A DNA stretch of 64,000 nt, taken from positions 1 to 64,000 of the forward strand of contig SVGN01000005.1 of NCBI GenBank assembly GCA_015056315.1, written 5' to 3'. Position 1 is the first letter of the stretch. Each line of letters opens with the position of its first letter. Of the stretch, positions 7,859 through 29,724 are shown piece by piece. The DNA comes from Clostridiales bacterium (GTDB lineage Bacteria > Bacillota > Clostridia > Christensenellales > Aristaeellaceae). Below the pieces are notes generated by a model. It worked only from the letters and a program-made list of their open reading frames with translations, searched no databases and had not been told where the DNA came from. A program made the translations under genes and the position numbers.

Positions 7859-7971
7859 TCGCACATCCCGCGCCTGCTGCGCTTGCAGCAGAGCACTGCG
7901 GTGCGGGAGCTGTGGGCGCTGCCCACACCCGGCAGGGGGATGATCCCCCTGCACCCCGCACATTGTCGACA
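7859..7971. repeat. Interspersed intergenic repeat, copy A
   Basis: Shares TGCGCTTGCAG, CTGCGGYGC, CTGCCCACACCCGGC and CCCCCTGCACCCCGCAC with 21560..21671, in the same order and orientation. Confidence 0.75.
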
Positions 7972-7975
7972 CAGA

Positions 7976-8941
7976 TCAGTACAGCTCCGGCAGCTTATCC
8001 TTGGTAACGGCCCAGGGGTGATCGTACATGGCCCGGAGGGCTGCGTTATCGGTGAATTCCTCGCCGGTGCAGAAGGCCCCGCACCAGGTCATGTAGCTTA
8101 CCCAGCGGGAGCGTTCCTCCGCCAGCGCAGCCGCCGAGGGGATGGTGCCGGTCTCGCCGATCAGGGTCAGCTTGGGCTGCTGAGTGATGCGGCGCAGCTC
8201 CTCCAGCTTTTGGGTCTGGGCGTTGTGGTCGTGGGCCGGGGGATACATATCCCGGGAGATGATATCCACCACGTCATCGCCGGGGTAGCAGGCGGGCACG
8301 GGGGAGTTCCATACCCAGATCAGGTTGTTGAGGCCGTGCAGGCGGGTGTAGCGGTCAAACATGAGCCGCCACAGGCCCTTCAGGGTCTCCGGGCCCTTTG
8401 CGCCCCACCAGAACCAGTCGCCGTCGCCCTCGTGGAAGGGCCGCCACAGAATGGGCACGCCTGCATCCCGGAAGGGGCGCAGCAGCGCTGCCATCATATC
8501 CATGTCCGAAAGCAGGGCTTTGTTCTCCGGAGTGCCCTCCACCAGTGCCAGAGAAGCATCGAAGGTGGTCTCCTTGGTGTAGAAGGCCTTGCCCCGGCCG
8601 CCCAGCGGCGAGAACCAGTGCCAGGTAAGGGTGACCACGCCCTTCTTGGCAGCCCACTCCCAGGCCTGCTTCAGGGTGCCGTAGTTGCCCTCCACCTCCT
8701 CCATGCACTCCTCATCGGTATCCAGATAATTGATGTTGGGGGAGTAGGAGAGCAGCTCGAAGCCCAGCAGCGCAGGCTGCTTGCCGGTGATCTTCTCAAT
8801 GTGGTGCAGCTCCTCCAAACCACGGGTCTTGGTGTGCTGCCCGGTAAGGATGCCGTTGCCGGTCAGGTCGGCAAGGTATTCCAGCATGCGGTGTACGCAG
8901 GGCTGGGCGTTGGGGGCGCAGGGGGCGGTAATGGGGCGCAT
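7976..8941 (-). CDS. GH26 beta-mannanase-like glycoside hydrolase, no signal peptide
   Basis: GNGILTGQHTKT, TWHWFSPLGG, PILWRPFHEGDGDWFWWGAKGPE, LIGETGTIPS. Confidence 0.88.
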   Translation of the reverse strand: MRPITAPCAPNAQPCVHRMLEYLADLTGNGILTGQHTKTRGLEELHHIEKITGKQPALLGFELLSYSPNINYLDTDEECMEEVEGNYGTLKQAWEWAAKKGVVTLTWHWFSPLGGRGKAFYTKETTFDASLALVEGTPENKALLSDMDMMAALLRPFRDAGVPILWRPFHEGDGDWFWWGAKGPETLKGLWRLMFDRYTRLHGLNNLIWVWNSPVPACYPGDDVVDIISRDMYPPAHDHNAQTQKLEELRRITQQPKLTLIGETGTIPSAAALAEERSRWVSYMTWCGAFCTGEEFTDNAALRAMYDHPWAVTKDKLPELY

Positions 8942-8944
8942 GGC

Positions 8945-11476
8945 TCAATTCTCCTTTCCCATCCAGTGCAGCTGGGGGGTATAGTCGGCGGCGGCTCCGG
9001 TCACGATCACGGTACGGCTCTCGCCGGGCCACAGCTCAAAGTCGTTGTCGTTGCAGCGGGCGCTGCCCGGCTCGGCCAGGTGCGCCATCCAGATGAAGCG
9101 GTCGGCGGTCAGGGTCACTTCGCAGCGGCCATCCTGCAGATCGGTGCAGGCGATCTCCACCTTGGCATCCTCGGCGATCATCTCGGCAAAGGGCGCAAAG
9201 AAGTAGCGGGTCTCGTTGATCACCTTACCGCCAGCCAGCAGACGGGCACGGAAGACCGTCTTTGCCGGGTCGAAGCCGATGCCCTCCAGCGCCACATCGC
9301 ACAGGTGAGCGGAGCCGTTGCGGGGCAGCTGCACCGCTTGGGTGCCGGTCTTCAGCACATCGCCGCGGGTGGTCATCAGCACCCACTCCAGCTGGGCGGC
9401 CTCGTCGGCCAGGGTATCGTTCATACCCCAGATCTCCAGCTTGCCGGGCTCCTTCTGCCAGTGCTCCCGCCAGGTGAAGCGGCCCTCGTCGTTGTGCACG
9501 TCCCAACCGCGGATGCACAGCGCCAGAGGTGCCATGGCCTGCTTGAGGGCGTAGTAGACGGGCTTGCAGCGCAGGGCATAGTCCACCAGAGACCAGTTGT
9601 GCACGCCGTAGCTGTCGGAGAGGGTCCAGAACAGGAGGCCGGAGCAGGTGAACTTCTGCCGCCGGAATTCCTCGTAGATGTGCCGGGTGATCTCCGACTG
9701 GATGGCCTGGCTGCGCAGGATGTACTGCTGGGGCGAATGCTCGCTGTCGCCAAAATACAGGCGCTTCATGCGGTCCAGCAGGGTATGGTCCTGGCAGGAG
9801 TTGGTGTGGTGCAGCCATACCGGGTCATCCGGGTGCATATGCTCGGCAGGGATGCAGCTCAGCGCCGTTTCCATGGGCATGGCGCCCATCAGGCCGAACT
9901 CGCTGAGGAACTTGACGCCGAACTCGGTGAAGCGCCACAGATCCAGGTAGTGGGGGTGGCTGTCCACATGGGTCAGGATCCAGATGTGCTGGTCGCCGTG
10001 GCGGCAATCGGCCTGCTTTTCGCCGCCGAAGGGGCTGCTCTGGCGGTAGACCAGCGTGGGACACATCTCCTCCACCAGCCCGGGCAGCAGCTTTTCGTAA
10101 ATGGTGCCGCCGTACCAGGGCAGATCCGGGTTCCAGGCCTTCTGGGAGCCGTACATCTCCTGGATCTCGTTATTGCCGGACCAGCCGATCAGGCTGGCGT
10201 GGCGGCGCAGGCGGCGGATGCCCTTGCGGGCTTCCTCGGTAACGTTTGCCATAAAGCCCGGGTCGTGATCCGGGTGGTAGCCGCAGGCGTAGAGGAAGTC
10301 GTGCCAGACCATGATGCCGCTCTCGTCGCAGGCCTCCATCAGCGTTTCGGAGGCATATACGCCGCCGCCCCAGACACGTAGCATGTTCATGTACTCATCC
10401 TTGGCAATGGCAATGAGCGCCCGCTCCTTTTCGGGGGTGATGCGGCCGGGCAGGCAATCGCAGGGCACATGGTTGGCACCCTTGCAGAACACCTTCTCGC
10501 CGTTGAGCACAAAGGTGAAGCCGGTCTCGTCGTTGGGCAGCTCCGGCTCAATGAGCGCGATGGTGCGCAGGCCCAGCTTCTGCACGTTTTGATCCAGCAC
10601 CGTGCCCTGTGCATCCTCGGCGGCGGCGGTAACGGTGTAGAGGTAGGCCTCGCCCATGCCGTTGCACCACCACAGATGGGCCTCAGGCACGGTCAGCTCG
10701 GCATCCTGCACCCCGGCAGCCAGGGGCATGCGCTTTTCCGCCACCACAGTGCCGCTCTTGTCGGCGATGGTCAGGTGCAGGGTGCAGCCTGCCTTGTCGG
10801 CAATGCTTTCGGTGGTGATCAGCACCCGGCAGGGCTTGCCCTCCTCGGGGGTCTCCCCGTGGCGGGCATACAGGTCGGTGATGGCGGCATCGTGTACGGC
10901 GGTCAGGTGCACATCCCGCCAGATGCCGCAGGTGGCCAGCCAGATGGTCCAGTCCCAGCCGTATACGTACTGGGGCTTGCGCATCCAGCTGCGCCAGGGC
11001 TGGTCGTTGTTCCACATCATATCCATGCGCTCCAGCTCATGGGTCTGGGCCTCTTTGAGACCCTGATCGATGCGCACCAGCAGGGTGTTCTCCCCGGCAC
11101 GGAGCAGGTCGGCGGCATCCCAGGCGATCTCTACAAAGGCATTGTTGTGGCTGCCCAGCAGCTGGCCGTTCAGGTATACATCGGCAGTGGTATCCAGCCC
11201 CTCAAAGGTAAGGAGCATGCGGGGCGCAAGCTGCGCTTCGGTAAGGGTAAAGCGGCGCTCGCACCAGAACTCCTTCTCTTCCACCCAGCGGCAATCCAGG
11301 CTGTTGAGCCCTTCCAGCGGCTCCTTGATGAGTCCGGCCTCGATCAGCGGGGTGTGTACATCGCCGGGCACGGTGTAGGGCAGTGCGGGCAGCAGAGCGG
11401 CGCTCATGGGCGTGCCTTCGCCGATATCGCACCAATGCATGTTCCAGAGGCCGTTCAGGGAAATGGTGTTCTTCAT
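8945..11476 (-). CDS. GH2 beta-mannosidase-like protein
   Basis: MKNTISLNGLWNMHWCDIGEG; CKGANHVPCDCLPGRI; MLRVWGGGVYASETLMEACDESGIMVWHDFLYAC; WSGNNEI. Confidence 0.92.
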   Translation of the reverse strand: MKNTISLNGLWNMHWCDIGEGTPMSAALLPALPYTVPGDVHTPLIEAGLIKEPLEGLNSLDCRWVEEKEFWCERRFTLTEAQLAPRMLLTFEGLDTTADVYLNGQLLGSHNNAFVEIAWDAADLLRAGENTLLVRIDQGLKEAQTHELERMDMMWNNDQPWRSWMRKPQYVYGWDWTIWLATCGIWRDVHLTAVHDAAITDLYARHGETPEEGKPCRVLITTESIADKAGCTLHLTIADKSGTVVAEKRMPLAAGVQDAELTVPEAHLWWCNGMGEAYLYTVTAAAEDAQGTVLDQNVQKLGLRTIALIEPELPNDETGFTFVLNGEKVFCKGANHVPCDCLPGRITPEKERALIAIAKDEYMNMLRVWGGGVYASETLMEACDESGIMVWHDFLYACGYHPDHDPGFMANVTEEARKGIRRLRRHASLIGWSGNNEIQEMYGSQKAWNPDLPWYGGTIYEKLLPGLVEEMCPTLVYRQSSPFGGEKQADCRHGDQHIWILTHVDSHPHYLDLWRFTEFGVKFLSEFGLMGAMPMETALSCIPAEHMHPDDPVWLHHTNSCQDHTLLDRMKRLYFGDSEHSPQQYILRSQAIQSEITRHIYEEFRRQKFTCSGLLFWTLSDSYGVHNWSLVDYALRCKPVYYALKQAMAPLALCIRGWDVHNDEGRFTWREHWQKEPGKLEIWGMNDTLADEAAQLEWVLMTTRGDVLKTGTQAVQLPRNGSAHLCDVALEGIGFDPAKTVFRARLLAGGKVINETRYFFAPFAEMIAEDAKVEIACTDLQDGRCEVTLTADRFIWMAHLAEPGSARCNDNDFELWPGESRTVIVTGAAADYTPQLHWMGKEN

Positions 11477-11706
11477 AGGTCGATCCCTCTCTTTGGTGGT
11501 CGGGCGGCGCAGGGGCTGCCCGGTGGTTTTGCGTACTGCAGAGGCGCGGCAGGTGTGGACAGCGGAAAAAAGGATCCTTTCGCCCCGCTCTTTGCATGCT
11601 TTGTCTCTGGCAAAGATTATAAGCCAAACCGGGAGGCTTGTCTATGCCTCCATTGCCCGTTGCTGCGAAAAACTCTGCCCGAACAGAAGAAACGCATCGA
11701 AACAGA

Positions 11707-11735
11707 TTGCACCACAGCAAAAAAACGAGTATAAT
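11707..11735 (+). promoter_or_regulatory. sigma-A type promoter for the 11793-21480 cluster
   Basis: TTGCAC - 17 nt - TATAAT. Confidence 0.65.
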
Positions 11736-11792
11736 GAAACATACACTTCTTGATACGTGTAAACAAGCGAATACAAAGGGAGGTCGTCTTTT

Positions 11793-12728
11793 TTGACAGA
11801 GCAGAGATTGGATATACAGAGCATATTCATGCAGGAGACTCAGGAGAACGGCTGGAAGGAGCTTTCCGGTACGGAGGAGCAGCTGACCGGCGCTGCCGAT
11901 GCACTGGAGAACACCCGCAAGGTGGTAGCCAGCCGCTGTTATGGCGACCAGACCCGGATCGATGCTTCCAACGCCATGTTCCAGCAGGCCCGAGCCGGTG
12001 TGGATACTGCCCGCCGGACGCTTTTTGCCGCCAAGCTGGCCCAGCCCAAGGCCCCGGGGCAGCAGAGCCCCTGGCTCACGGCGGCGCTGCTGGCGGGCAC
12101 GGTGGTGTTCAGCATTTTTGCGGTGTCTGTAAAGCTGGGCTTCCTCAAATCGTTCATGGCGGTGGTGGCAGCCATTCTGGCAGGCGCAGCGCTGGTGATG
12201 GAGGTACTGCGCCTCTGGAGCACCGTAGACCTGCCCGGTATGCTGAAAAAGCTGGTTTCTTTTGTGCCTGCCAAAAAGCTGCGCAAATGGCTGGAAAAGA
12301 GCCTTGAGAACCGTCAAAAGAAGGCTGCCGAGCCCAAAGCGGAGCAGCCCGCCCCGGAGGTGGTGCTGGATGCGCCCCTGCTGGAGGAGTGCCTGCAGAG
12401 CCAGCTGGCCCTGATCGAGCAGAACCTGCCCACCTTCACCGAGCAGCCCCAGACCGTGGTGCACCCCGGCGGCGATGAGCTGTGGCCGCTGGTGCGTACC
12501 ATGCTGCAGAGCCGCTACACCGCCGGTGCGGCCTTCCCCGAGCGGGTGGAGGATGAACTGGAGAACTTCCTTACCGGCAACGGCATCACTTTGGTGGAGT
12601 ACAGCCCGGAAAACGCCCATCTCTTTACCACCCAGCAGATGGATGAGACCTTCACCATCTTCCCGGCCCTCATCAAGGACGGCAAGGTGCTGGAGCGTGG
12701 CCGCGCCGCTGTGGCAAAGGAGGGCTGA
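11793..12728 (+). CDS. Uncharacterised protein: coiled N-terminus, two TM helices, possible GrpE-like C-terminus; TTG start
   Basis: PWLTAALLAGTVVFSIFAVSVKLGFLKSFMAVVAAILAGAALVMEVL; C-terminal FTIFPALIKDGKVLERGRAAV; 2 nt before the Hsp70-like gene. Confidence 0.75.
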   Translation: MTEQRLDIQSIFMQETQENGWKELSGTEEQLTGAADALENTRKVVASRCYGDQTRIDASNAMFQQARAGVDTARRTLFAAKLAQPKAPGQQSPWLTAALLAGTVVFSIFAVSVKLGFLKSFMAVVAAILAGAALVMEVLRLWSTVDLPGMLKKLVSFVPAKKLRKWLEKSLENRQKKAAEPKAEQPAPEVVLDAPLLEECLQSQLALIEQNLPTFTEQPQTVVHPGGDELWPLVRTMLQSRYTAGAAFPERVEDELENFLTGNGITLVEYSPENAHLFTTQQMDETFTIFPALIKDGKVLERGRAAVAKEG

Positions 12729-12730
12729 GT

Positions 12731-14461
12731 ATGGCGGATTTCTATCTTGGCATCGATATCGGCGATGGTGAGACCTCTGTCGCCGTGCTTACCGAGCATG
12801 CGGTAGCCCCCCTCACGGTGGATCTGGGCTGCCTGCACTACTCCATCCTCAGCGCCGTGGGCACTGCCCCGGACGGCTCCTTCGTCATCGGCGAGGATGT
12901 GCTCCTGAAGACCGATGTAAAGGATCGCAGCGTGCGTTTCAAGAGCAAGTTCCTCAAGGGCACCGCCAACGAGGATATCGTCCGCTTTGCCAAGGGGCTG
13001 GCGGAGGCCATCCGGCAGTATTCGGGGCTGGTGGCGGAGGGCAATACCCTGTACTATGCCGTGGGCTGCCCCACCGGCGCAGGCTGGACAGATCCCGTAC
13101 GCCATGCCTATGCCGACCTGATCCGCATGGCGCTGCCGGTGCCGGAGATGCCGGTGGGCGAATCCCGCGCCGCATTCCTCTACACCAACTATTCCGGCAG
13201 CCTGGGTGTTTCGCCCGAGCTGCTGGAGGGCAGCGTGCTGGTGGTGGATATGGGCTCCTCCACCACCGATCTGGCTTATGTGGTCGGCGGCCGGGACGAG
13301 ACCCGCACCATGGCGGAGTTCGGCGCAGCCTTTCTGGGCGGCGGGCTGATCGACCATGCCATTTTGGAGCATTGTGTGGCCCTGCACCCCCAGGCGGAGG
13401 AGATCCGGCAGCTGTTTGAGCGGGAGCCCAGTGTGCGCACCGCCTGCGAGATCGATGCCCGCCGCCTGAAGGAGGGCTACTTTACCGCCCTCAGGGAGCA
13501 CAAGCCCTTTACCGGCAAGACCTGGGAGGATCTCTACTGCGGCCGCACAGCCGCCTCCCACACCAGCCTCAAGCTCTTTGTTACCGACGAGATGATGCAG
13601 GAGATCCTGAACCGGCCCCTGCCGGACAGCGGCCTTTCCTATCTGGATACCTTTGCCCGACAGCTGGAGACCGCCGTGGAAAAAACCAAAGCTGCGCCCC
13701 CGCAGCTGATCATCCTTACCGGCGGTGCCAGCCGCATGGGCTTTGTGGGGGAGATGGCAGCCAAATACTTCCCCCATGCTACCATCGGCGCATGCCCGGA
13801 GCCGGAGTTCTCCATCGCCAAGGGGCTTGCCTTTGCCTGCCGGGTGGATCACCGTATGAAGCGCTTCCTCAGCGATGTGAACGGCATCATGGAGACCGGT
13901 GAATTCGACCGGGAGCTGGATCAGGCTCTGCCGGGGCTGGTGGAGCGGCTGTGCAGCGCCATCGTGCCCCATTATGTGCAGAAGCTCTTCCTGCCCATGG
14001 CCAAGACCACCGAAGCGGGCGAACCCCTCCGGCAGGCACTGGAGAAGGCCACCCCCGACTTCTTTGCCTCCGAGGATGTGCGCAGGCTGATCGATCATCA
14101 GCTGACCGATTGGATGAAGAGCGCCATGCCCAACCTGAAGGATCGCATCAGCCGGGTCTGCCGCAGCTACAGCGTGGATCAATCCGCCATTCCCGTGCCC
14201 CGGGCAGAGAATGTGCAGCTGCGCATGCCGGAGGTGCCCATCCATTTTGTTATCAATGTGCTGCTCACCATACCCGGTGTGGGCAGCCTGGTGGCGGGCG
14301 TGATGCGCAAGCACTACATCGCCAGTGCGGAAAAGCGTCTCCGGGAGGATATGCTCAGCCGCAGCGGCACCTTCTATATGGATTTCCGCACCGCCCTCAA
14401 AAAGTGCATCAAAGCCGAGGTGGATGAGCGGGCCCGCAGGGTACAGATCCCCATCATGTAA
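12731..14461 (+). CDS. Hsp70-like (actin-fold) ATPase with non-canonical C-terminus
   Basis: FYLGIDIGDGETSVAVL (phosphate-1), VLVVDMGSSTTDLAYV (phosphate-2), LIILTGGASRMGFV (adenosine motif). Confidence 0.85.
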   Translation: MADFYLGIDIGDGETSVAVLTEHAVAPLTVDLGCLHYSILSAVGTAPDGSFVIGEDVLLKTDVKDRSVRFKSKFLKGTANEDIVRFAKGLAEAIRQYSGLVAEGNTLYYAVGCPTGAGWTDPVRHAYADLIRMALPVPEMPVGESRAAFLYTNYSGSLGVSPELLEGSVLVVDMGSSTTDLAYVVGGRDETRTMAEFGAAFLGGGLIDHAILEHCVALHPQAEEIRQLFEREPSVRTACEIDARRLKEGYFTALREHKPFTGKTWEDLYCGRTAASHTSLKLFVTDEMMQEILNRPLPDSGLSYLDTFARQLETAVEKTKAAPPQLIILTGGASRMGFVGEMAAKYFPHATIGACPEPEFSIAKGLAFACRVDHRMKRFLSDVNGIMETGEFDRELDQALPGLVERLCSAIVPHYVQKLFLPMAKTTEAGEPLRQALEKATPDFFASEDVRRLIDHQLTDWMKSAMPNLKDRISRVCRSYSVDQSAIPVPRAENVQLRMPEVPIHFVINVLLTIPGVGSLVAGVMRKHYIASAEKRLREDMLSRSGTFYMDFRTALKKCIKAEVDERARRVQIPIM

Positions 14462-14480
14462 GCAAAAGGAGGATGGCTGT

Positions 14481-15410
14481 ATGGAATACATGGATCCTAC
14501 CGGCAAGCTCCGGCAGACCCCCTACCAGGTGATCGGCTTTGCCGATTATGTGAAGAACCGCCTCGCCGAGCTGCGAAGCCCCATCGCGCCCCCGCCCTAT
14601 GCCATGCCCGCCGAAAAGGAGCAGCTGGCGGCGGTGAGCGAGTATGTGAGCCAAAACCCCTACCAGTTTTTCGAGACCTATAACGACCACGTAAACAAAA
14701 CACTGACCACCGGCAAGACCAGCATGATCACCCGCATGTCGGATCCGCTCCTGTATACCTGCATGGAGGATTGCTGTGCGGCGCTGGGCTTTGGCAGTCT
14801 GGCCGGGTACACCTACGAGCCGGAGGAGGCCGGGCTGGTGTACAACGCCTATGCCACCGGGCATATGGATATGACCTGGGTCATGGTCAGCAATGCATAC
14901 CGCAAGCAGAACCTGCTCACCGATCTGGAGCTCACCTTCCTTTTGGGGCACGAGCTGGGGCATGTGGCCGGGCTGCATACCTCTGCCCGCAGCATTCTGA
15001 AGCTGAAGCCGGAAAGCATCCGCAGCCAGGAGCACACCGCCGACCGGGCAGGCCTGCTGGCCACGGTGTGGCGCATCGCAAGACTGGAGGCGGGCCTTTC
15101 GCCCACAGAGATGTACCACAAGGCGCTGGAGGCCGGTAAGAGCCTCCGGCATAAGCAGCACATCCTCAACAATGTGGCAAGCGCCGGGCCCTGGACCCGC
15201 CAAAGCCTGGAAGAGAAGCTGGCGGAGCCTAAGTATGCCATCCCGGAGAAAAAAGCGGGCCGCAAGGATACCCATCCCTCTGCATGGGAGCGCATCCGTG
15301 CGCTGGAGGAGTATGTACGCCTGACGGAGTTTGCCGAGTGCATCCACACCCTGTGGGGCAGCGCACATCCGGCAGCCCTCCGGCTGGGAGAGGAGGCTGC
15401 CCATGTTTGA
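14481..15410 (+). CDS. M48-like zinc metalloprotease
   Basis: LTFLLGHELGHVAGLHTSARS (HExxH) and downstream SQEHTADRAGLLA with candidate third ligand; AAAGGAGG before ATG. Confidence 0.8.
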   Translation: MEYMDPTGKLRQTPYQVIGFADYVKNRLAELRSPIAPPPYAMPAEKEQLAAVSEYVSQNPYQFFETYNDHVNKTLTTGKTSMITRMSDPLLYTCMEDCCAALGFGSLAGYTYEPEEAGLVYNAYATGHMDMTWVMVSNAYRKQNLLTDLELTFLLGHELGHVAGLHTSARSILKLKPESIRSQEHTADRAGLLATVWRIARLEAGLSPTEMYHKALEAGKSLRHKQHILNNVASAGPWTRQSLEEKLAEPKYAIPEKKAGRKDTHPSAWERIRALEEYVRLTEFAECIHTLWGSAHPAALRLGEEAAHV

Positions 15411-17058
15411 CCGCCTGTTTGAGATCCTGAAGCGCAGCCCGGTGGATATGAGCAGCATCACCAACGCTGCCGGTGCTGCCGGGGAAAAGCAGCTGCTCAT
15501 CGCCGGAGATGGGAAGGCCTCCGTGCTTTCTCTGCTGGGGGATGTGGGCGCAGGCTGCCCGGAGCTGACCGCCGTGCAGCAGCCCTGTGTGGTGGAGGTG
15601 AGCCACGGCAGCGAGGAAAGCCTCCTGCTCATCGGCGAAGGCGGCAGCATGCGCTGCAGCGGCCTGAGCGATCTGGGCACCAGACTCTCCTGGCCCGAAA
15701 ACCGCGGCGCTACCGCAGTGCTGACCCTGCCCCACGATCTTTTTGGTTTTGATAAGCTGGTGTTTGCCACCCTGGACGGCGACCGCTTCGCCGAGCAGCT
15801 TTCCGCCCGGGCTCCGGCAGCCAGAGGCGCGGTCATCGTGCTCAACGCCTATGAGGCCCCCCAGAAGGCCGTGTACGACTATGCCAAATGGCTGGCGGAG
15901 GCCTGCGGGCTGAGCGGCGCTGCGGCAGTGGTGGTGCAGGGCAAAGATCCGGCTGCCCAGAGCGCTTCTGCCATGATGTGCGCCCTGCAGATGGGCGTGG
16001 CCGAGCTGCCGGTATTCACCAACGATCCGGAGCAGCCCGCTGCCGGTACCCTGGCCCGGGTGCTGGAGAGCCTGCCCGTTGCGGCAGGTGCGGATGAGCA
16101 AGCGCTGGAGCGGGCTATGGCCCAGCGGGCCTGCAAGCTGCTGGAGGAGGAAAAGCAGCGGCTCGCGGCACTGGCGGCAGCACCTGCCCCCCGCCGCAGA
16201 AAGCTGGCGGAGTGCTTCGAGGCGGAGATCCCCGTGGCCCGGATGCTCATCGGGCAATTGTTCACCGAAGAACTGAGCAACCAGCTCTACAGCGAGATGC
16301 GGGATTTTGGCATCTTTTTGCAGCAGAACATCACCGACCTGCTGGTAAGCGGTGTGGCAGAGCTGGAGGCTGCAAAGGCCGAGATGCCGGAGATCCGCCC
16401 CAAGGATGCCCTGCGCGCCTTTACCCAGAGCTATCTGGATGAGCTGCTTTTCGGCTTCTCCCGGCAGCTGGTGAGCAGCCTGTCCGAAAACATACTGCTG
16501 CCCAAAGCCCGGGAGATCTACGCCCGTATGTTCGAGTGGGCCTGGATCGATGTGACCGGTACCGAAGCCGCCGCCATGGCGCAGCTGCAGACCCAGGAGC
16601 TGCACACCACGGTGGATAAGCTTCAGCAGCGGGGCAACAGCATTCTGTCTACGCTGCTCACGTATGCCATCCTTTTCCTGTGCCCGGAGCTGAGCCGCAG
16701 CAACCGCGTGATCAGCGCCATCCATGTGGTGGTGGAGATGGTGGTGAGCAGTGTACGTGAAAGCCTTACCCCGGCTTCGTCCATTGCCAGGAGCAAGGGC
16801 AAGCAGCTGGAGGAGGTGCTGGGCGGCATCATTGCCCAGTACCAGACCATGGTCATCGATACCATGATCCCCCAATTGAGAGATAGCCTGCTGGGCTGGT
16901 TCGACGACCAGTGCAGCCTTACCCTCCGGGAGCTTGCCCGCTGCGACGGGGAGCAGGAGGAGCGCATCCGGAGCCACCGGCAGAGCGCAGAAGAAAACCG
17001 TACCGCCATTGCCTTGATCGATGGGCTGCTCGGCGAGCTGGCCCCCTGGCAGGCATAG
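15403..17058 (+). CDS. Putative dynamin-like pseudo-GTPase, uncharacterised
   Basis: Overlaps the previous gene by 8 nt; LLIAGDGKASVLSLLG sits where a P-loop would; helix-rich C-terminal half; next to two true dynamin-like GTPases. Confidence 0.6.
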   Translation: MFDRLFEILKRSPVDMSSITNAAGAAGEKQLLIAGDGKASVLSLLGDVGAGCPELTAVQQPCVVEVSHGSEESLLLIGEGGSMRCSGLSDLGTRLSWPENRGATAVLTLPHDLFGFDKLVFATLDGDRFAEQLSARAPAARGAVIVLNAYEAPQKAVYDYAKWLAEACGLSGAAAVVVQGKDPAAQSASAMMCALQMGVAELPVFTNDPEQPAAGTLARVLESLPVAAGADEQALERAMAQRACKLLEEEKQRLAALAAAPAPRRRKLAECFEAEIPVARMLIGQLFTEELSNQLYSEMRDFGIFLQQNITDLLVSGVAELEAAKAEMPEIRPKDALRAFTQSYLDELLFGFSRQLVSSLSENILLPKAREIYARMFEWAWIDVTGTEAAAMAQLQTQELHTTVDKLQQRGNSILSTLLTYAILFLCPELSRSNRVISAIHVVVEMVVSSVRESLTPASSIARSKGKQLEEVLGGIIAQYQTMVIDTMIPQLRDSLLGWFDDQCSLTLRELARCDGEQEERIRSHRQSAEENRTAIALIDGLLGELAPWQA

Positions 17059-17075
17059 GGGAGGGAGTGTAAGCC

Positions 17076-19205
17076 ATGATGAATGTAACCAACGTAGGCC
17101 GGACGCTGGCGGAGGTCTCCCGTACGCTGGCTCAGCTGACCGGCGACCGTATGACCCGGCAGGTGCTGGAGGCCAATGCGGTGCACCTGCAGTTGGGCGC
17201 TGTGCGCCTGATGCTGCTGGGCAGCTCCGGCGCGGGCAAGAGCACCATGATCAATGCGCTGCTGCGCTGCATCGCCGTGCCGGAGAGCGGGCTCACCTCG
17301 TCGCCCATCCCGGTGTGGTTCACTCCGGGCGAGGGCCTCACCTACAAGGTGTACCGGGATGGCCCCAACGGCCCCGAGCTGATGGAGCAGCCGGGGCGGG
17401 ATCAGTTCATCCGCAAGTACTGCTTCAACGTGAGCGATATCCTGGATGACAAGCGCAGCCGCTTCGAGGAGGTGGGCTGGGCCAGCGCCGAGCTGGATTC
17501 TGCCCTGCTCCGGGAGACCGGCGCCACCCTGATCGATACCCTCGGCATCGGCGTTACCGATGCGGATACCATCAAGACCCTCAAGGTGATCGACAGCGGC
17601 GTGGATCTGGTGGTGTTCGTCACCGCCGACCATGTACAGCTCCAGCAGGATGATATCACCTTCCTGCGGGAAAAGGTGCTGGGGCTGGGCGAGCGCCAGG
17701 TGCCGTACCCCATCAGCCCCTCCCAGCTGCTGCTGGTGTATAACGACCACGGCGCAGGCGGCACCTATACCCAGATGCAGAGTGCCGTGGATAAGCTGCT
17801 CAAAGGGCTGGAGGAGGAAGAGATCCAGCGGTTCAAGGAAAACAATCTGGTCATGGTCAATGCGCTGGCAGCCCGTCTGGGGCGCTGCGGCGCATACGAT
17901 TACCATCACTTTGCCCCGGAGGGCACGCCGGAGATGCTCACAGCCTCCCTCATCAAGCAGACCGAGCGCGACCGGCAGGCCCTTACCGAGCGGGCAGAGC
18001 AGATCGCCGAGCAGGCAGCCGTTTTCCAGCAGCTGGAGGACAAGGTACGCCGTATGGCCTACGAGCAGATGCACGGGACAGACGGCGTGGTCATGCGGCG
18101 CATCATCCGTCTGGAGCGCATCATGAAAGAGATCCGCGCTCAGGCCGGGGCGGAGCTGGGCAGGCTCAAGGGCGACCGGGCAGCCATCCAGCACCGGATC
18201 GCCGATATCCGGCAGCTGCTGCAGACCTTTACCGAGGCCAACCGCGAGGTGGATGCGGTGTACGACGAGCAGCGCATGCAGATGCAGGCTGCGGTGGTCA
18301 GCACCCTCAGCAACAGCCAGAGCGCACGGGATGCCATCGTGGGCAAGATCTACGAGCTGGAGCAGCCGCCGGAGTTCATCAACAAAGAAAGCATGGAGCG
18401 CTTCTTCGACAGCAGCAGCCTGGAGCGGGAAAAGCTGGTGGAGGAGTGGATCCGTACCATTATGGAGGAGAGCTTCCTGCCGGAGGCCAGCCGCGGCTTC
18501 AAGACCACGCTGCTGGAGACCACCGCCCAGGAGGGCGACCCCGGCTATACCCAGCAGGATACCGTAAGCTGGCAGCTGGCCGCCGCCCGCAAGCTGACCA
18601 TGCAGCAGGGCGTGCGCATGAAGAATTTCTGCGATCAGCTGCGCCTGAAGGGCGCGGCGGATATCGGCATGAGCGTGCCCGACGAGGAGACCATCGAGCA
18701 GTGGGCCGCCGATATGGCCAGCGCAATGGAGACCTCCATCCTCGCTTCGGTAGCCGATCTGCAGGAGGTGGCCTACCGCAAACTCAGCGAGCAGCTGCCC
18801 GGCATCGTGCGCACCATTCTGGGCAAGGGCCTGTTGCAGGTGCTCAACACCTGGTGGACGCGCCTGATGGGCAATGTGAACAAGTTCTGGCTGGCGGTGC
18901 GCAACTCCGCCGTAAAGGATGCCGCCAAGGCCATCAGCAACGAATGGTTCAGCGCCAGCCTGGGCAATGCGGGCAACGATATGTTCTTCGGCATCGATAA
19001 GGCCTATGCCCAGATGCAGAAAAACGTGTTCTACAGCCTGGAGCGCCAGTGCAGGCAGGTGGAGGATTATCTCAACCAGCTGGAGAAAGCGCTGGAGAAC
19101 ACCTCCGATGACGAGTCGGAGGCCTCCGAAGCCCTCCGCAACACCGAAGAAGCGCTGGATGCGCAGAAGGCAAAGCTGGATGAGCTGCGCAGCCATATCG
19201 GCTGA
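17076..19205 (+). CDS. Dynamin-like GTPase 1
   Basis: P-loop GSSGAGKST, SGLTSSPIPVWFTPG switch I, TLIDTLGIGVTDADTIK, then LLVYNDHG; long helical C-terminus. Confidence 0.85.
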   Translation: MMNVTNVGRTLAEVSRTLAQLTGDRMTRQVLEANAVHLQLGAVRLMLLGSSGAGKSTMINALLRCIAVPESGLTSSPIPVWFTPGEGLTYKVYRDGPNGPELMEQPGRDQFIRKYCFNVSDILDDKRSRFEEVGWASAELDSALLRETGATLIDTLGIGVTDADTIKTLKVIDSGVDLVVFVTADHVQLQQDDITFLREKVLGLGERQVPYPISPSQLLLVYNDHGAGGTYTQMQSAVDKLLKGLEEEEIQRFKENNLVMVNALAARLGRCGAYDYHHFAPEGTPEMLTASLIKQTERDRQALTERAEQIAEQAAVFQQLEDKVRRMAYEQMHGTDGVVMRRIIRLERIMKEIRAQAGAELGRLKGDRAAIQHRIADIRQLLQTFTEANREVDAVYDEQRMQMQAAVVSTLSNSQSARDAIVGKIYELEQPPEFINKESMERFFDSSSLEREKLVEEWIRTIMEESFLPEASRGFKTTLLETTAQEGDPGYTQQDTVSWQLAAARKLTMQQGVRMKNFCDQLRLKGAADIGMSVPDEETIEQWAADMASAMETSILASVADLQEVAYRKLSEQLPGIVRTILGKGLLQVLNTWWTRLMGNVNKFWLAVRNSAVKDAAKAISNEWFSASLGNAGNDMFFGIDKAYAQMQKNVFYSLERQCRQVEDYLNQLEKALENTSDDESEASEALRNTEEALDAQKAKLDELRSHIG

Positions 19206-19239
19206 TGGCTGCATTACACGTTGAAAGGAATGGTGTTCC

Positions 19240-21480
19240 ATGGTGGGAGACCCCAAACAGACCATGGAGAAGCTGGAGGCCCTGACCCGCAGGTATGAGG
19301 GCTACGGCAAATATGTGGAGTTCCTTGCCGCCACCGCCCGGGAATACGGCCTGTGGCAGAAGTACGGGCAGCAGCTGGCTGACCTGTATCTGCGCTTGAA
19401 GCAGGGCCCTGTGCGCCTGGTGATCGCCGGTGAATCCAGCACGGGCAAAAGCACGCTGATCAATGCCTTTGCGGGCGAGTTCATCGTGCCGGAGAGCGCG
19501 GGCGTATGCACCCCGGTGCCTGTGTGGCTGATGCGCCACAACAAAAAGACCACCTTCGTCAACCCCTACCAGCGCCGGGATGATGATCTGCCTGCTGCAC
19601 AGTATGCCATGTCGCCCTCCAGACTTCTGGAGCTGCAGTACAGCGCCAAGGCGGATGAGACCTTCCAGAACGATAAGCAGATCCTTGTCTATGTAGACAG
19701 CCCCCATCTGCCGCCCTGCGTCACTCTTGTGGATACCCCCGGCCTCAACGCCAACGAGGCGGATACCGCCAAGACCTACGCCCTGTTCGACCCGCCCTCC
19801 TATTGCAGCGGAGACGAGGCCGACCCGCCGGAGATCGTGCTGTTTCTGACCCGCCACGAAAACCTGATGCAGAGCGAAGTGAACGCCCTGAAGGATCTCT
19901 TTGCCCGGGGCGCAGACCGGCAGAGCTGCTTTCTGGTGCACAACGACGTGCGCGACCGCACCGCCCTCTTTGCCGACACCTTTGAGGAGGTGAACCGGCA
20001 GGCGGAGGCGGGTCTGCGCAGCTCGCTGGCGGCGCTGGAGGCAGAGGAGGCTCCCCAGGAGGAGCAGGATCTCTACAGCGCCGATCTGGACTTCCTCGAC
20101 GACGACCTGACCATGGAGCATGTCTACAGCCTCAACGCCCTTCTGGCACGTCTGCAATGCGTCAAGGAGAACGAGGGCATCTACCCCATGGCCAAATACC
20201 TGCCTGTGGGGGTAACGCTGGAGCAGCGGGAGGAGCTGCTTCGGCAGGAGGATAAGCAGCGTGCCATCGCTCAGGTACGGGATCAGTGGGTGGCGATGGG
20301 CAACAGCGGCTACGCCCCCATGCAAGCCCTTTCGGACGGCATCCTGGAGCATGTGCTGTGGCTTTGCGAAAACAGCATGGAGCTGGAAAACGCGCTGATC
20401 ATTGCCGACCGGCTGGGCAGGGACATCCTTTCGGAATGCAGACCGGCCCGATCCCGGGAGGGTGCTGAAACGATCGATGCCCTCCGGCAACTGCTGGAGG
20501 AGCTGGATGCGGGCCCCGCAAACGGCTTTGCCACCGGCGAGCAGGCCCGGAAGACCGAGAGCACGGTACTGCTGCTTGCCAAAAATGCCTACGACATCCA
20601 CAACAAGCAGCTGGAGCTGGTCATCCAAAAAGCCACGGGCAAGGCCATCAACTGGGCGCAGCTGTTTGCCATGCTGGCAGGCGGTGCGTTCTTCGGCCCC
20701 CTGGGCTTTCTGGCGGGCGGCATGGTGCAGTTTATTCAGAACGATAAGCTGTGGAAGGAGTTCAAGCAGCTGTTCGACCGGTACATCGGGTACAACAGCT
20801 TTGAGGCGGTGTTTGCCGAGGGCAAGCTGAAAGACCCTGAGCCGGTGCTGGTGGTCTACAGCGAGCTGCTGGGAAAGGTGGACAAGATCCTGACCAGTGA
20901 CCCCTCCCTCTTCCGGGAGCAGTTCCGGCAGTCTTTGCTCAACCGGGTGCAGCAGGCGGAGGAAGCCCTCCAGAGCCTGAAGGCCGTAGAGGAACGCTTT
21001 GCCACGGCCATGGGCACCCAAAAGGTGCGCCGTATGCTGACGGATGGCTGCAGCACCGATCCGGAGGATGTGCTGGATGGGCTGGTTCGCACTTTGCGGA
21101 GACAGATCCGGCAGGTAGATGCCAGCTGCTCCGGGCAGGAGCGGGAAAAGCTGATCGCCGGGCTGGAGAAGCACGGCGAAGAGGTGCGGGCTTCCTTTGC
21201 CGAGCGCAAGGTGCTCTACCAGCGGGTGGTCTGCCCCGTACTGGCAGAAAAGCTGGAAAAGTATATGGCGACCCCCGACCCCGAGGATGAAGAGAAGCTG
21301 AAGGAGCAGCTGCATGCCTATGCAGCGCCCATCGCGCGGCTCTACGAGAACCTCCGGGCGGAGATCGCCAATGCGCTGGCCCACCGGCAGGCTGTGTACG
21401 ACGAGGAATGCCGTGCAGAATGCGAGGCTGTGCAGAGCGAGCTGCGCAGACAGGCAGACGAGCTCCGGGCGCAGGCGTAA
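19240..21480 (+). CDS. Dynamin-like GTPase 2 with a predicted membrane-insertion segment
   Basis: P-loop GESSTGKST, SAGVCTPVPVWL, TLVDTPGLNANEADTA, FLVHNDVRD; LFAMLAGGAFFGPLGFLAGGMVQF. Confidence 0.87.
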   Translation: MVGDPKQTMEKLEALTRRYEGYGKYVEFLAATAREYGLWQKYGQQLADLYLRLKQGPVRLVIAGESSTGKSTLINAFAGEFIVPESAGVCTPVPVWLMRHNKKTTFVNPYQRRDDDLPAAQYAMSPSRLLELQYSAKADETFQNDKQILVYVDSPHLPPCVTLVDTPGLNANEADTAKTYALFDPPSYCSGDEADPPEIVLFLTRHENLMQSEVNALKDLFARGADRQSCFLVHNDVRDRTALFADTFEEVNRQAEAGLRSSLAALEAEEAPQEEQDLYSADLDFLDDDLTMEHVYSLNALLARLQCVKENEGIYPMAKYLPVGVTLEQREELLRQEDKQRAIAQVRDQWVAMGNSGYAPMQALSDGILEHVLWLCENSMELENALIIADRLGRDILSECRPARSREGAETIDALRQLLEELDAGPANGFATGEQARKTESTVLLLAKNAYDIHNKQLELVIQKATGKAINWAQLFAMLAGGAFFGPLGFLAGGMVQFIQNDKLWKEFKQLFDRYIGYNSFEAVFAEGKLKDPEPVLVVYSELLGKVDKILTSDPSLFREQFRQSLLNRVQQAEEALQSLKAVEERFATAMGTQKVRRMLTDGCSTDPEDVLDGLVRTLRRQIRQVDASCSGQEREKLIAGLEKHGEEVRASFAERKVLYQRVVCPVLAEKLEKYMATPDPEDEEKLKEQLHAYAAPIARLYENLRAEIANALAHRQAVYDEECRAECEAVQSELRRQADELRAQA

Positions 21481-21495
21481 AGAAGTGCATACAGT

Positions 21496-21525
21496 AACAG
21501 GCACAGCCCGACGGCTGTGCCTGTT
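21496..21525 (+). terminator. Intrinsic terminator after the cluster
   Basis: AACAGGCACAGCC-CGAC-GGCTGTGCCTGTT. Confidence 0.75.
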
Positions 21526-21559
21526 TGATCGTTATGGATCGCATTTTTTGCACGGAGCC

Positions 21560-27108: not shown

Positions 27109-27666
27109 TCAGGCCTTTTTCCCAAAACCCAGCATGCGCAGGTTCTTTAGGGTGTAGCACACCCCGGAGTAGAGGATCATCCCAGCGCAGAGCAGGATCA
27201 GCCCGGTGGAGAGCGCCTCCGGTATGCCCTGCCACAGGAGGTGCAGCCCCATCATCAGGTACAGGAGCGCGGTGGATACCTTGCCGTGCCAATCCGCACC
27301 GTTCACCTGGCCCGTGCGCCGGATCACCCACAGGCCCAGAAGGGCGGCCACAAATTCCTTAACCACCAGCAGGGCAAGGGGCAGCAGCATCAGCGGTTGG
27401 TGGGTGAGCAGGCAGACCAGCACCACGGTCTGGGTCAGCTTGTCGGCGATGGGATCCAGCACCTTGCCCAGATCGCTGGTCTGGTGGAACCGGCGGGCGA
27501 TCCAGCCATCCACCATATCGGTCAGGCCGGAAAGCACCAAAAGCCCTACGGTGAGCGGCCGATCCTCCCGCGTGAGGAATGCCCATACGATGAGCGGGAT
27601 CAGCAGGATGCGGATCAGAGACAGAAGATTGGGCAGAGTACAGATGCGTTTTTGCTGCTGCGTCAT
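27109..27666 (-). CDS. pgsA: CDP-diacylglycerol--glycerol-3-phosphate 3-phosphatidyltransferase
   Basis: LPNLLSLIRILLIP; CDP-alcohol phosphotransferase motif DMVDGWIARRFHQTSDLGKVLDPIADK. Confidence 0.9.
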   Translation of the reverse strand: MTQQQKRICTLPNLLSLIRILLIPLIVWAFLTREDRPLTVGLLVLSGLTDMVDGWIARRFHQTSDLGKVLDPIADKLTQTVVLVCLLTHQPLMLLPLALLVVKEFVAALLGLWVIRRTGQVNGADWHGKVSTALLYLMMGLHLLWQGIPEALSTGLILLCAGMILYSGVCYTLKNLRMLGFGKKA

Positions 27667-27694
27667 TTGCGTTGCTCCTTTGGTGTGCTGCTCT

Positions 27695-29509
27695 TTATGC
27701 GTCCAACAGCTGCATAAAGGTGTCTCCGGTAATGGTCTCCTGTTCGTAGAGGTGCTGGGCCAGGGCGTGGAGCTTATCCATATCCTGCCGGAGGATGGCT
27801 GCGGCTTTTTCGTATTGCCGCTTTGCCAGGGCGATCACCTGCCGGTCGATCTCCGCCTGGGTATCTGCCGAGCAGGAGAGGGAGGCATCGCCGCCCAGAT
27901 ACTGGTTGGTAACGGTCTCCAGCGCCACCATGCCGAAATCCTCGCTCATGCCGTAGCGGGTGATCATGGCCCGGGCCAGCCGGGTGATCTGCTCAATGTC
28001 GTTGCTTGCGCCGGTGGATACGGTGCCGAACACCAGCTCCTCGGCAGCCCTGCCGCCCGCATAGGTGGCGATCTTGTTCTCCAGCTCCTCCCGGCTCAGG
28101 AGGCAGTGGTCATCCTGCTCCACCTGCATGGTGTAGCCCAGCGCCCCGGAGGTGCGGGGTATGATGGTGATCTTCTGCACCGGGGCGGAGTGGGTCTGCC
28201 GTGCTGCCACCAGCGCATGGCCTATCTCGTGGTAGGCCACCACCTTTTTCTCCTGATCGCTGAGGATGGCGTTCTTCTTTTCGTAGCCTGCGATCACCAC
28301 CTCGATGCTTGCTTCCAGATCCTGCTGGGTAACGGCGCTGCGTCCATCCCTTACAGCACGCAGGGCGGCCTCGTTGACCATATTGGCCAGCTCTGCGCCG
28401 GATGCGCCGGAGGCCATGCGGGCCACCTGCCGGAAGTCGATGCTGCCGGTGGTCTTTACCTTCCTGGCGTGTACCTGCAGGATCTTGGCGCGCCCCTCCA
28501 GATCCGGCAGCTCTACGGGGATGCGCCGGTCGAAACGGCCGGGGCGGGTAAGCGCCGGGTCGAGGGATTCGGGGCGGTTGGAGGCTGCCAGCAGCATTAC
28601 GCCGTTGTTGCCTTCGAAGCCGTCCATTTCGGTAAGCAGCTGGTTGAGGGTCTGCTCCCGCTCGTCGTTGCCGCCCAGGGCACCGCCCTCACGCTTTTTG
28701 CCAATGGCGTCTATCTCGTCGATAAATACGATGCAGGGGGCTTTTTCCTTGGCCTGCTTGAACAGATCCCGCACCTTGGCAGCGCCCATACCGGCGAACA
28801 TTTCCACAAATTCGGAGCCGGACATGGAGAAGAACGGCACATCCGCTTCGCCTGCCACTGCCTTTGCCAGCATGGTCTTGCCCGTGCCGGGAGGGCCCAC
28901 CAGCAGCACGCCCTTGGGCATGGAGGCACCGATGGCCTTGTACTTCTCCGGGTCGTGCAGATAATCCACGATCTCGCCAAGGCTCTCCTCGGCTTCGTCC
29001 ACGCCCTCGATATCGCTGAATTTGATGCCCTGGGTGGATTTGACATACACCTTGGCATTGCTCTTGCCCATGCTGAACATCATGGCATTGCCGCCGCCGG
29101 CTTTGTTCATCAGCTTTTTGGAAAGGAACTGCCCCAGCAGGATGAACAGCACCATCGGCAGCACCCAGGAGACCAGCAGACTCAGCAGCAGGGAGGGTTC
29201 CTCGTAGATCTCGCTGCCGAAGGTGGCTCCGGCTTCGTGCAGCCGCTCCACCAGGCCGGGGTCGTCCATCAGGCCGGTTTTGTAAAACTGTTTCTGCTCC
29301 TTATCGGTAAAAATGATCTGGTGATCCTGGAGCTGCACTGCGCCTACCTTCTGCTCGGCGGTCATGGTCATAAAGGTGCCGTAGTCCACTTCCTTCACCT
29401 GCTGTTTGGCCAGCCACGGCACCAGCAGGGTGTTGATGGCGAGCAGCACCCCAAGGGCGATGAGGTAATAGAAAATGAGCGGCTTTTTAGGCTTTTGCAC
29501 TTCGTTCAT
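27695..29509 (-). CDS. ftsH: ATP-dependent zinc metalloprotease FtsH
   Basis: GPPGTGKTMLAKAVAGEA; FIDEIDAIG; SRH; VVAYHEIGHAL; N-terminal TM. Confidence 0.95.
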   Translation of the reverse strand: MNEVQKPKKPLIFYYLIALGVLLAINTLLVPWLAKQQVKEVDYGTFMTMTAEQKVGAVQLQDHQIIFTDKEQKQFYKTGLMDDPGLVERLHEAGATFGSEIYEEPSLLLSLLVSWVLPMVLFILLGQFLSKKLMNKAGGGNAMMFSMGKSNAKVYVKSTQGIKFSDIEGVDEAEESLGEIVDYLHDPEKYKAIGASMPKGVLLVGPPGTGKTMLAKAVAGEADVPFFSMSGSEFVEMFAGMGAAKVRDLFKQAKEKAPCIVFIDEIDAIGKKREGGALGGNDEREQTLNQLLTEMDGFEGNNGVMLLAASNRPESLDPALTRPGRFDRRIPVELPDLEGRAKILQVHARKVKTTGSIDFRQVARMASGASGAELANMVNEAALRAVRDGRSAVTQQDLEASIEVVIAGYEKKNAILSDQEKKVVAYHEIGHALVAARQTHSAPVQKITIIPRTSGALGYTMQVEQDDHCLLSREELENKIATYAGGRAAEELVFGTVSTGASNDIEQITRLARAMITRYGMSEDFGMVALETVTNQYLGGDASLSCSADTQAEIDRQVIALAKRQYEKAAAILRQDMDKLHALAQHLYEQETITGDTFMQLLDA

Positions 29510-29724
29510 GGCGGTATCTCCTTCAAGATTATGCGGGCGGGCAAGCGCCTGTCTCACGCAAAAAAGTGTGCCCACCTTCGCTGTTTCTATCATAGCTGCC
29601 AAACATCAACCAAAGGCAAAACAAAAGTAAAGCCGGGTTGAGGTTTGTCTGTTGCGGCAGGGGCTGCGCCTGTGCTATAATTTCTGCAAATAAAGGGCTT
29701 TTGCTGCCGTTGGGAGATACCGTT

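Follow-up and report, generated by a model that had tools for sequence, protein, structure and literature searches.

What brings an Hsp70-type ATPase, a metalloprotease and dynamin-like proteins (DLPs) together in one bacterial gene block? The question is raised by a 64,000-nucleotide stretch of contig SVGN01000005.1 from a Clostridiales bacterium (assembly GCA_015056315.1), hereafter the window, in which open reading frame (ORF) calls place six plus-strand genes, g1 to g6, at 11793–21480. The genes are separated by gaps of 2, 19, −8, 17 and 34 nt, as an earlier note on this DNA had described. The block, or cassette, is a genuine but rare accessory unit, and we regard as evenly balanced the interpretation that it is an operon in which a chaperone pair and a protease control membrane remodelling.

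A rare accessory unit kept in two genera

When 300 genomes from this bacterium's family were searched with g4, one further carrier was found, G254, which belongs to a different genus, so the block is present in 2 of the 300. The G254 locus (L036, 7352–17348) encodes homologues of all six proteins, with gene order and strand unchanged, between unrelated flanking genes. The proteins of the two copies share 38–40, 52, 45, 43, 61 and 36% identity by alignment, from g1 to g6. The survey of genome neighbourhoods that the earlier note had proposed as a check thus finds the synteny of all six genes kept in a second genus. Since a second intact copy exists in another genus, a chance assembly is excluded. 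In G254, a 177-amino acid (aa) protein with a glycine-rich hydrophobic stretch is encoded 3 nt behind g6 (L036, 17352–17885), which has no counterpart in the window.

No further complete copy was found in 391 genomes of the class and 398 genomes of the phylum, nor in the 28 other genomes of the genus of G254 (1 of 29 there, a sample that overlaps with that of the family). In the class and phylum samples, the g4 query returned a single doubtful match that is interrupted by stop codons. Viral contigs queried with g5 and g4 gave no match, plasmids (g4 and g6) and phages (g5) gave either none or one of 17% coverage, and contig scans with g2 and with g6 found no relative. Weak dynamin matches in other genomes of the family were rejected because their loci are not of the six-gene type. 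Many phylum-wide matches to the g2 profile, which score below 50 bits over frames of about 600 aa, are most likely DnaK and were not counted as members of the g2 family.

Components and layout of the block

g1 consists of a helical N-terminal part, about two transmembrane (TM) helices near residues 95–145 and a C-terminal domain (residues ~223–311). The alignment of the g1 family had shown a C-terminal motif resembling GrpE before the structure search was made. In the AlphaFold2 model, built on a 14-sequence alignment, the C-terminal blocks (residues 231–310) reach a predicted local distance difference test score (pLDDT) of 85–96, with about 90 for the domain. The modelled domain comprises a pair of helices and a beta part of six strands, and the helix pair plus beta-wing fold of GrpE is present in it. 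Seven GrpE chains are found among the 50 listed structural matches. The best well-superposed one is 4ani_B, which aligns to residues 223–311 with a Z-score of 7.5 and a root-mean-square deviation (rmsd) of 2.9 Å over 84 aa, together with 9bls_B (Z 7.0, 3.0 Å, 84 aa), 8gb3_E (Z 6.9, 3.1 Å, 86 aa), 9blt_C (Z 6.5, 3.0 Å, 85 aa) and 3a6m_A (Z 5.3, 2.6 Å, 66 aa). The chains 9a81 and 1dkg show large rmsd values because their aligned range extends into the helical part. Unrelated structures reach similar Z-scores, but on the helical N-terminal part, and Foldseek alone gave no match at E ≤ 0.001. According to the model, g1 is GrpE-like in fold, and we do not class it as GrpE; the previous description as a two-TM protein holds for the membrane helices and was incomplete with respect to this domain. 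Because the gene adjoins that of an Hsp70-type ATPase, a GrpE-like function is proposed, and g1 is probably a membrane-anchored nucleotide exchange factor.

The Hsp70-fold ATPase previously assigned to g2 is borne out by a profile match to the nucleotide-binding domain of DnaK (E 3e-15). The Pfam HSP70 score of 18.7 bits (E 5.6e-4) lies just below the cut-off of 20.6. The nucleotide motif regions DIGDGE, DMGSSTTD and TGGASRM are conserved (alignment A7). No sequence match to a peptide-binding domain is found past about position 358 of the profile, and hydropathy reveals one hydrophobic stretch (506–524) in the C-terminal part. The possibility that this C-terminus is a dynamin stalk was rejected, as the profile comparison gave no signal.

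g3, which had been taken for an HExxH protease, matches Peptidase_M48 with 39.9 bits (cut-off 20.3; E 5e-10) and has a complete zinc site, formed by HELGH at position 157 and by the third ligand E184 in EHTAD. All three ligands are kept in G254. The TM helices of HtpX- and OMA1-type M48 proteases were not found, as neither the g3 of the window genome nor that of G254 shows a hydrophobic peak.

The original description of g5 and g6 as dynamin-like GTPases whose P-loops are intact is confirmed. g5 matches Dynamin_N with 32.1 bits (cut-off 27; E 1.5e-7) and carries intact G1 (GSSGAGKS) and G3 (DTLG) motifs. The corresponding values of g6 are 53.4 bits against the same cut-off (E 4e-14), with G1 GESSTGKS and G3 DTPG. 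Among solved structures, BDLP1 (2j68) is nearest to both by profile, with E-values of 5e-7 for g5 and 7e-11 for g6, and Cj-DLP (5owv) is also near g6 (E 8e-5). Across the G domain, the two proteins are related. A paddle-like hydrophobic segment is present in g6 (475–493) and a hydrophobic paddle is absent from g5, as would be expected of an unequal pair. A different dynamin operon was observed in another genome (L089, 3125–10562; G292:C83), in which two adjoining genes for probable GTPases, one of them a clear dynamin (Dynamin_N 7e-20), lie near a HerA-type helicase gene.

The identity of g4 is less firm. The protein lacks a P-loop, as the earlier note had stated, and has a hydrophobic stretch at 413–431; the dynamin label that the note also gave it is plausible but unproven, with a structural hint only. 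Family searches returned neither a Pfam Dynamin match nor any other convincing one, and a profile comparison with g5 and g6 gave nothing significant. The best alignment with g5, which is itself non-significant, sets the first strand of g4 on the P-loop strand of g5. The top structural matches of the g4 model are nearly all stalks of the dynamin superfamily, among them MxA (3szr; Z 8.9, 171 aa, 4.7 Å for this low-confidence model), and Foldseek alone found no match at E ≤ 0.001. Our best guess from the model is a dynamin-type pseudo-GTPase.

The coordinates of the genes and of the putative control signals are summarized in the table. A purine-rich ribosome-binding site precedes each of the six starts; that of g1 is a TTG codon, which is backed by the alignment with its relative. 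The six genes are likely to form a single transcript, because they are closely packed, with g3 and g4 overlapping by 8 nt. The promoter and terminator proposed earlier both hold in part. At the position given for the promoter, the −10 box is perfect and the −35 box, TTGCAC, has 3 of 6 consensus bases; a 9-of-12 promoter scan does not list it. At the 3´ end, a very stable hairpin is present (−24.7 kcal/mol for 21486–21530), with a poor T-tract after the stem, and the terminator scan does not list it either.

Features of the six-gene block in the window
Feature	Position	Strand	Basis
g1, membrane protein with C-terminal GrpE-like domain (predicted)	11793..12728	+	AlphaFold2 model, structural search
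g2, Hsp70-type (actin-fold) ATPase	12731..14461	+	profile match, alignment, hydropathy
g3, soluble M48-type zinc metallopeptidase	14481..15410	+	Pfam, motifs, hydropathy
g4, probable dynamin-like pseudo-GTPase with helical stalk	15403..17058	+	low-confidence model, structural list
g5, dynamin-like GTPase	17076..19205	+	Dynamin_N, BDLP1 profile match
g6, dynamin-like GTPase	19240..21480	+	Dynamin_N, BDLP1 and Cj-DLP profile matches
candidate promoter TTGCAC-N17-TATAAT	11707..11735	+	read from sequence
stable hairpin, terminator-like, weak T-tract	21496..21525	+	sequence

Origin and surroundings of the block

The chaperone half of the block has relatives of its own. Homologues of g2 at about 30–38% identity are present in 17 of 17 genomes of the genus and in several other genera of the family; by alignment, g2 is 28–32% identical to the core paralogues. 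In the loci examined the g2 relative sits directly behind a g1 relative wherever the contig permits. This stand-alone pair, here termed the core pair (g1´ and g2´), was observed at L021, 8598–11358, in the window's own genome (G000:C97), and at the homologous loci L023–L033 and L152–L160. A pseudouridine synthase gene lies upstream in most loci and ApbE downstream in several. As far as our searches reach, a stand-alone pair of a membrane GrpE-like protein and an Hsp70 appears to be undescribed.

The window genome and G254 each contain the core pair in addition to the cassette. In the g2 tree, the two cassette copies group together with 100/100 support, apart from the core copies of each genome; the deeper placement of the cassette clade is unsure because some branches are long. 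The cassette Hsp70s of the two genomes share 52% identity and the core Hsp70s 37%, which would fit either a slower change or a spread of the cassette by transfer inside the family. The core g2´ is about 50 residues longer than the cassette protein and bears a hydrophobic, glycine-rich hairpin close to the C-terminus, which is lost or shortened in the cassette copies. Since genes 1 and 2 are a paralogue of the core pair, the system consists of an existing chaperone module of the lineage and new partners. In the genome G002, a second and strongly diverged g2 paralogue adjoins a gene for a Sel1-repeat protein (L027, 278–6068; G002:C140).

The GC content of the cassette (0.62–0.64) is host-like compared with that of the window (0.60), and a foreign origin by base composition was rejected. 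The gene blocks on the left (mannosidase) and on the right (DUF4422/GNAT) are conserved in the sister species G011 and G009, where their location on separate contigs does not allow a clean insertion to be demonstrated. The cassette is adjoined on the left by a GH26 glycoside hydrolase and an 843-aa beta-mannosidase-like enzyme (window 7976–11476), both conserved in a sister species and likely a mannan-use pair. Farther to the right, at 27109–29602, the gene of an FtsH (M41) protease lies next to that of a CDP-alcohol phosphatidyltransferase, and this pair is also conserved in a sister species. Antisense ORFs of up to 880 aa occur opposite the real genes on both strands (window 7883–21504). Because about 80% of the third codon positions are G+C, such ORFs are expected, and those opposite the cassette were treated as high-GC artefacts.

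Proposed mechanism and comparison with known systems

In the proposed mechanism, g1 would reside in the membrane with its GrpE-like exchange domain facing the cytosol, and g2 would be its dedicated Hsp70-type ATPase, in which a partly hydrophobic C-terminus may replace a recognisable peptide-binding domain. g5, g6 and probably g4 would form membrane-bound oligomers that supply force on the membrane, while g1 and g2 would use ATP to load these oligomers, change their conformation or take them apart. By clipping or removing one of its partners, which could be a dynamin-like protein, g4 or g1, g3 may serve as the switch of the machine, in the way that OMA1 acts on OPA1. We infer the physical complex, the client relationship, the protease substrate and the membrane topology. 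This mechanism is supported by two precedents: the DLP that adjoins Nostoc BDLP1 has a DnaJ-like domain, a proposed DnaK-binding domain (PMC6104087), and the stress-activated mitochondrial metalloprotease OMA1 cleaves OPA1, a dynamin-family GTPase (PMC8027119).

Several results weigh against membrane remodelling under chaperone and protease control. Only two instances of the block are known. The GrpE family PF01025 matches none of the 14 g1 proteins, and a profile comparison of g1 with GrpE (hhalign) is not significant (E 0.1); a Z-score of about 7 can by itself reflect a common arrangement. The dynamin label of g4 rests on a poor model (mean pLDDT 44.6). Finally, the HPD motif of J-domains is absent from all six proteins, so a J-partner would be a DnaJ of the host or none.

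Envelope stress, vesiculation and phage defence were the purposes suggested in the earlier note. The most likely purpose appears to be membrane repair or stress tolerance. We prefer it to phage defence, as the flanking genes scanned include no recognised defence neighbours, the queried proteins gave no mobile copies, and the chaperone half is related to the core pair. Dynamin-like GTPases do act on the membrane during infection in the models of Bacillus subtilis DynA and of LeoA/LeoBC (Eleos). In an anti-phage role, the dynamins would act likewise, the chaperone pair would serve as a sensor or a safety catch, and the protease would be the effector. Such a role would suit the sparse and accessory distribution (2 of the 300 genomes of the family, and 1 of the 29 genomes of the second genus). 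The diverged g2 paralogue in G002 is also located ~1.7 kb from a GmrSD-type restriction enzyme (PADLOC Orf5, 4e-160). g5 and g6 show PADLOC similarity to LeoA/LeoBC, but the matches are weak and partial: none to Eleos/LeoABC is full-length, and the best to LeoA (1.2e-4) covers residues 44–82 of g6 around the P-loop. No PADLOC match extends over most of any of the six proteins, and the scanned flanking genes of both cassettes contain no recognised defence system (the window's own flanks by Pfam scan only). Queries with g4 to g6 found nothing meaningful in phages, plasmids and viral contigs, and the parent pair belongs to the core genes of the genus. We consider the defence role unlikely.

A secretion or vesicle-release apparatus with chaperone-assisted assembly, in which the dynamins would pinch or fuse the membrane to release vesicles or a product and the protease would mature the cargo, is quite improbable; no cargo or export gene is recognised in the cassette at either locus. 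A similarly slim chance is given to two separate units that are merely co-transcribed, a duplicated quality-control trio (GrpE-like protein, Hsp70 and M48 protease) and a dynamin trio. g1 and g2 do occur alone in the very same genomes, but the order of all six genes is kept in two genera with differing flanks, and g3 overlaps g4 in the window.

Within the preferred reading of chaperone- and protease-controlled membrane remodelling, a bolder proposal is held tentatively and at less than even confidence. The block may encode a membrane-remodelling machine of a new type. In it, the membrane-anchored GrpE-like factor and its dedicated Hsp70-type ATPase would assemble and take apart a dynamin-like complex of three members, namely two GTPases and a pseudo-GTPase, and the M48 protease would be the switch. 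Such a machine would be a self-contained equivalent, in prokaryotes, of the control of mitochondrial dynamins. If the chaperone-dynamin coupling is real, the machine would be categorically new. The regulation of bacterial DLPs is mostly unknown, and a link to Hsp70 was already suspected from the DnaJ-like domain (PMC6104087). Chaperone control of a bacterial dynamin is directly testable with the six genes because the Hsp70 ATPase, the GrpE-like partner, the protease and the dynamins share one probable operon.

The earlier note knew of no characterised system with exactly this gene set. Searches of PADLOC, NCBIfam, Pfam, PDB sequences and the literature likewise revealed no such operon, with incomplete coverage of the literature, so that an earlier description is possible. 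In contrast to the DnaK-GrpE cycle, with which the block shares an Hsp70 nucleotide-binding domain adjoining a GrpE-like domain, the putative exchange factor is tied to the membrane, and neither a recognisable peptide-binding domain nor a J-protein is present. PF01025 finds one canonical GrpE per genome of the genus, located elsewhere, which in the window genome is on another contig. The core pair has homologous genes in identical order, but its neighbours are the pseudouridine synthase and, in several genomes, ApbE, and it has no dynamins. The combination of an M48-type metalloprotease with dynamin-like GTPases resembles OMA1-OPA1 (PMC8027119); however, g3 is without a TM segment, and a cleavage of dynamins by g3 is a proposal. 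Most bacterial DLP genes occur as pairs in operons (PMC6104087). The block shares adjoining, co-directional DLP genes and BDLP1-like G domains with the paired DLPs of Nostoc (BDLP1), Campylobacter (Cj-DLP1/2) and enterotoxigenic Escherichia coli (LeoABC). For the Hsp70 link, a precedent is the DnaJ-like domain in the DLP that neighbours BDLP1 (PMC6104087). Compared with these pairs, only the block has its own Hsp70-type ATPase, a GrpE-like membrane partner, an M48 protease and a P-loop-less member. The multi-gene DLP operon is thus of a known kind, and the chaperone and protease modules are the new additions.
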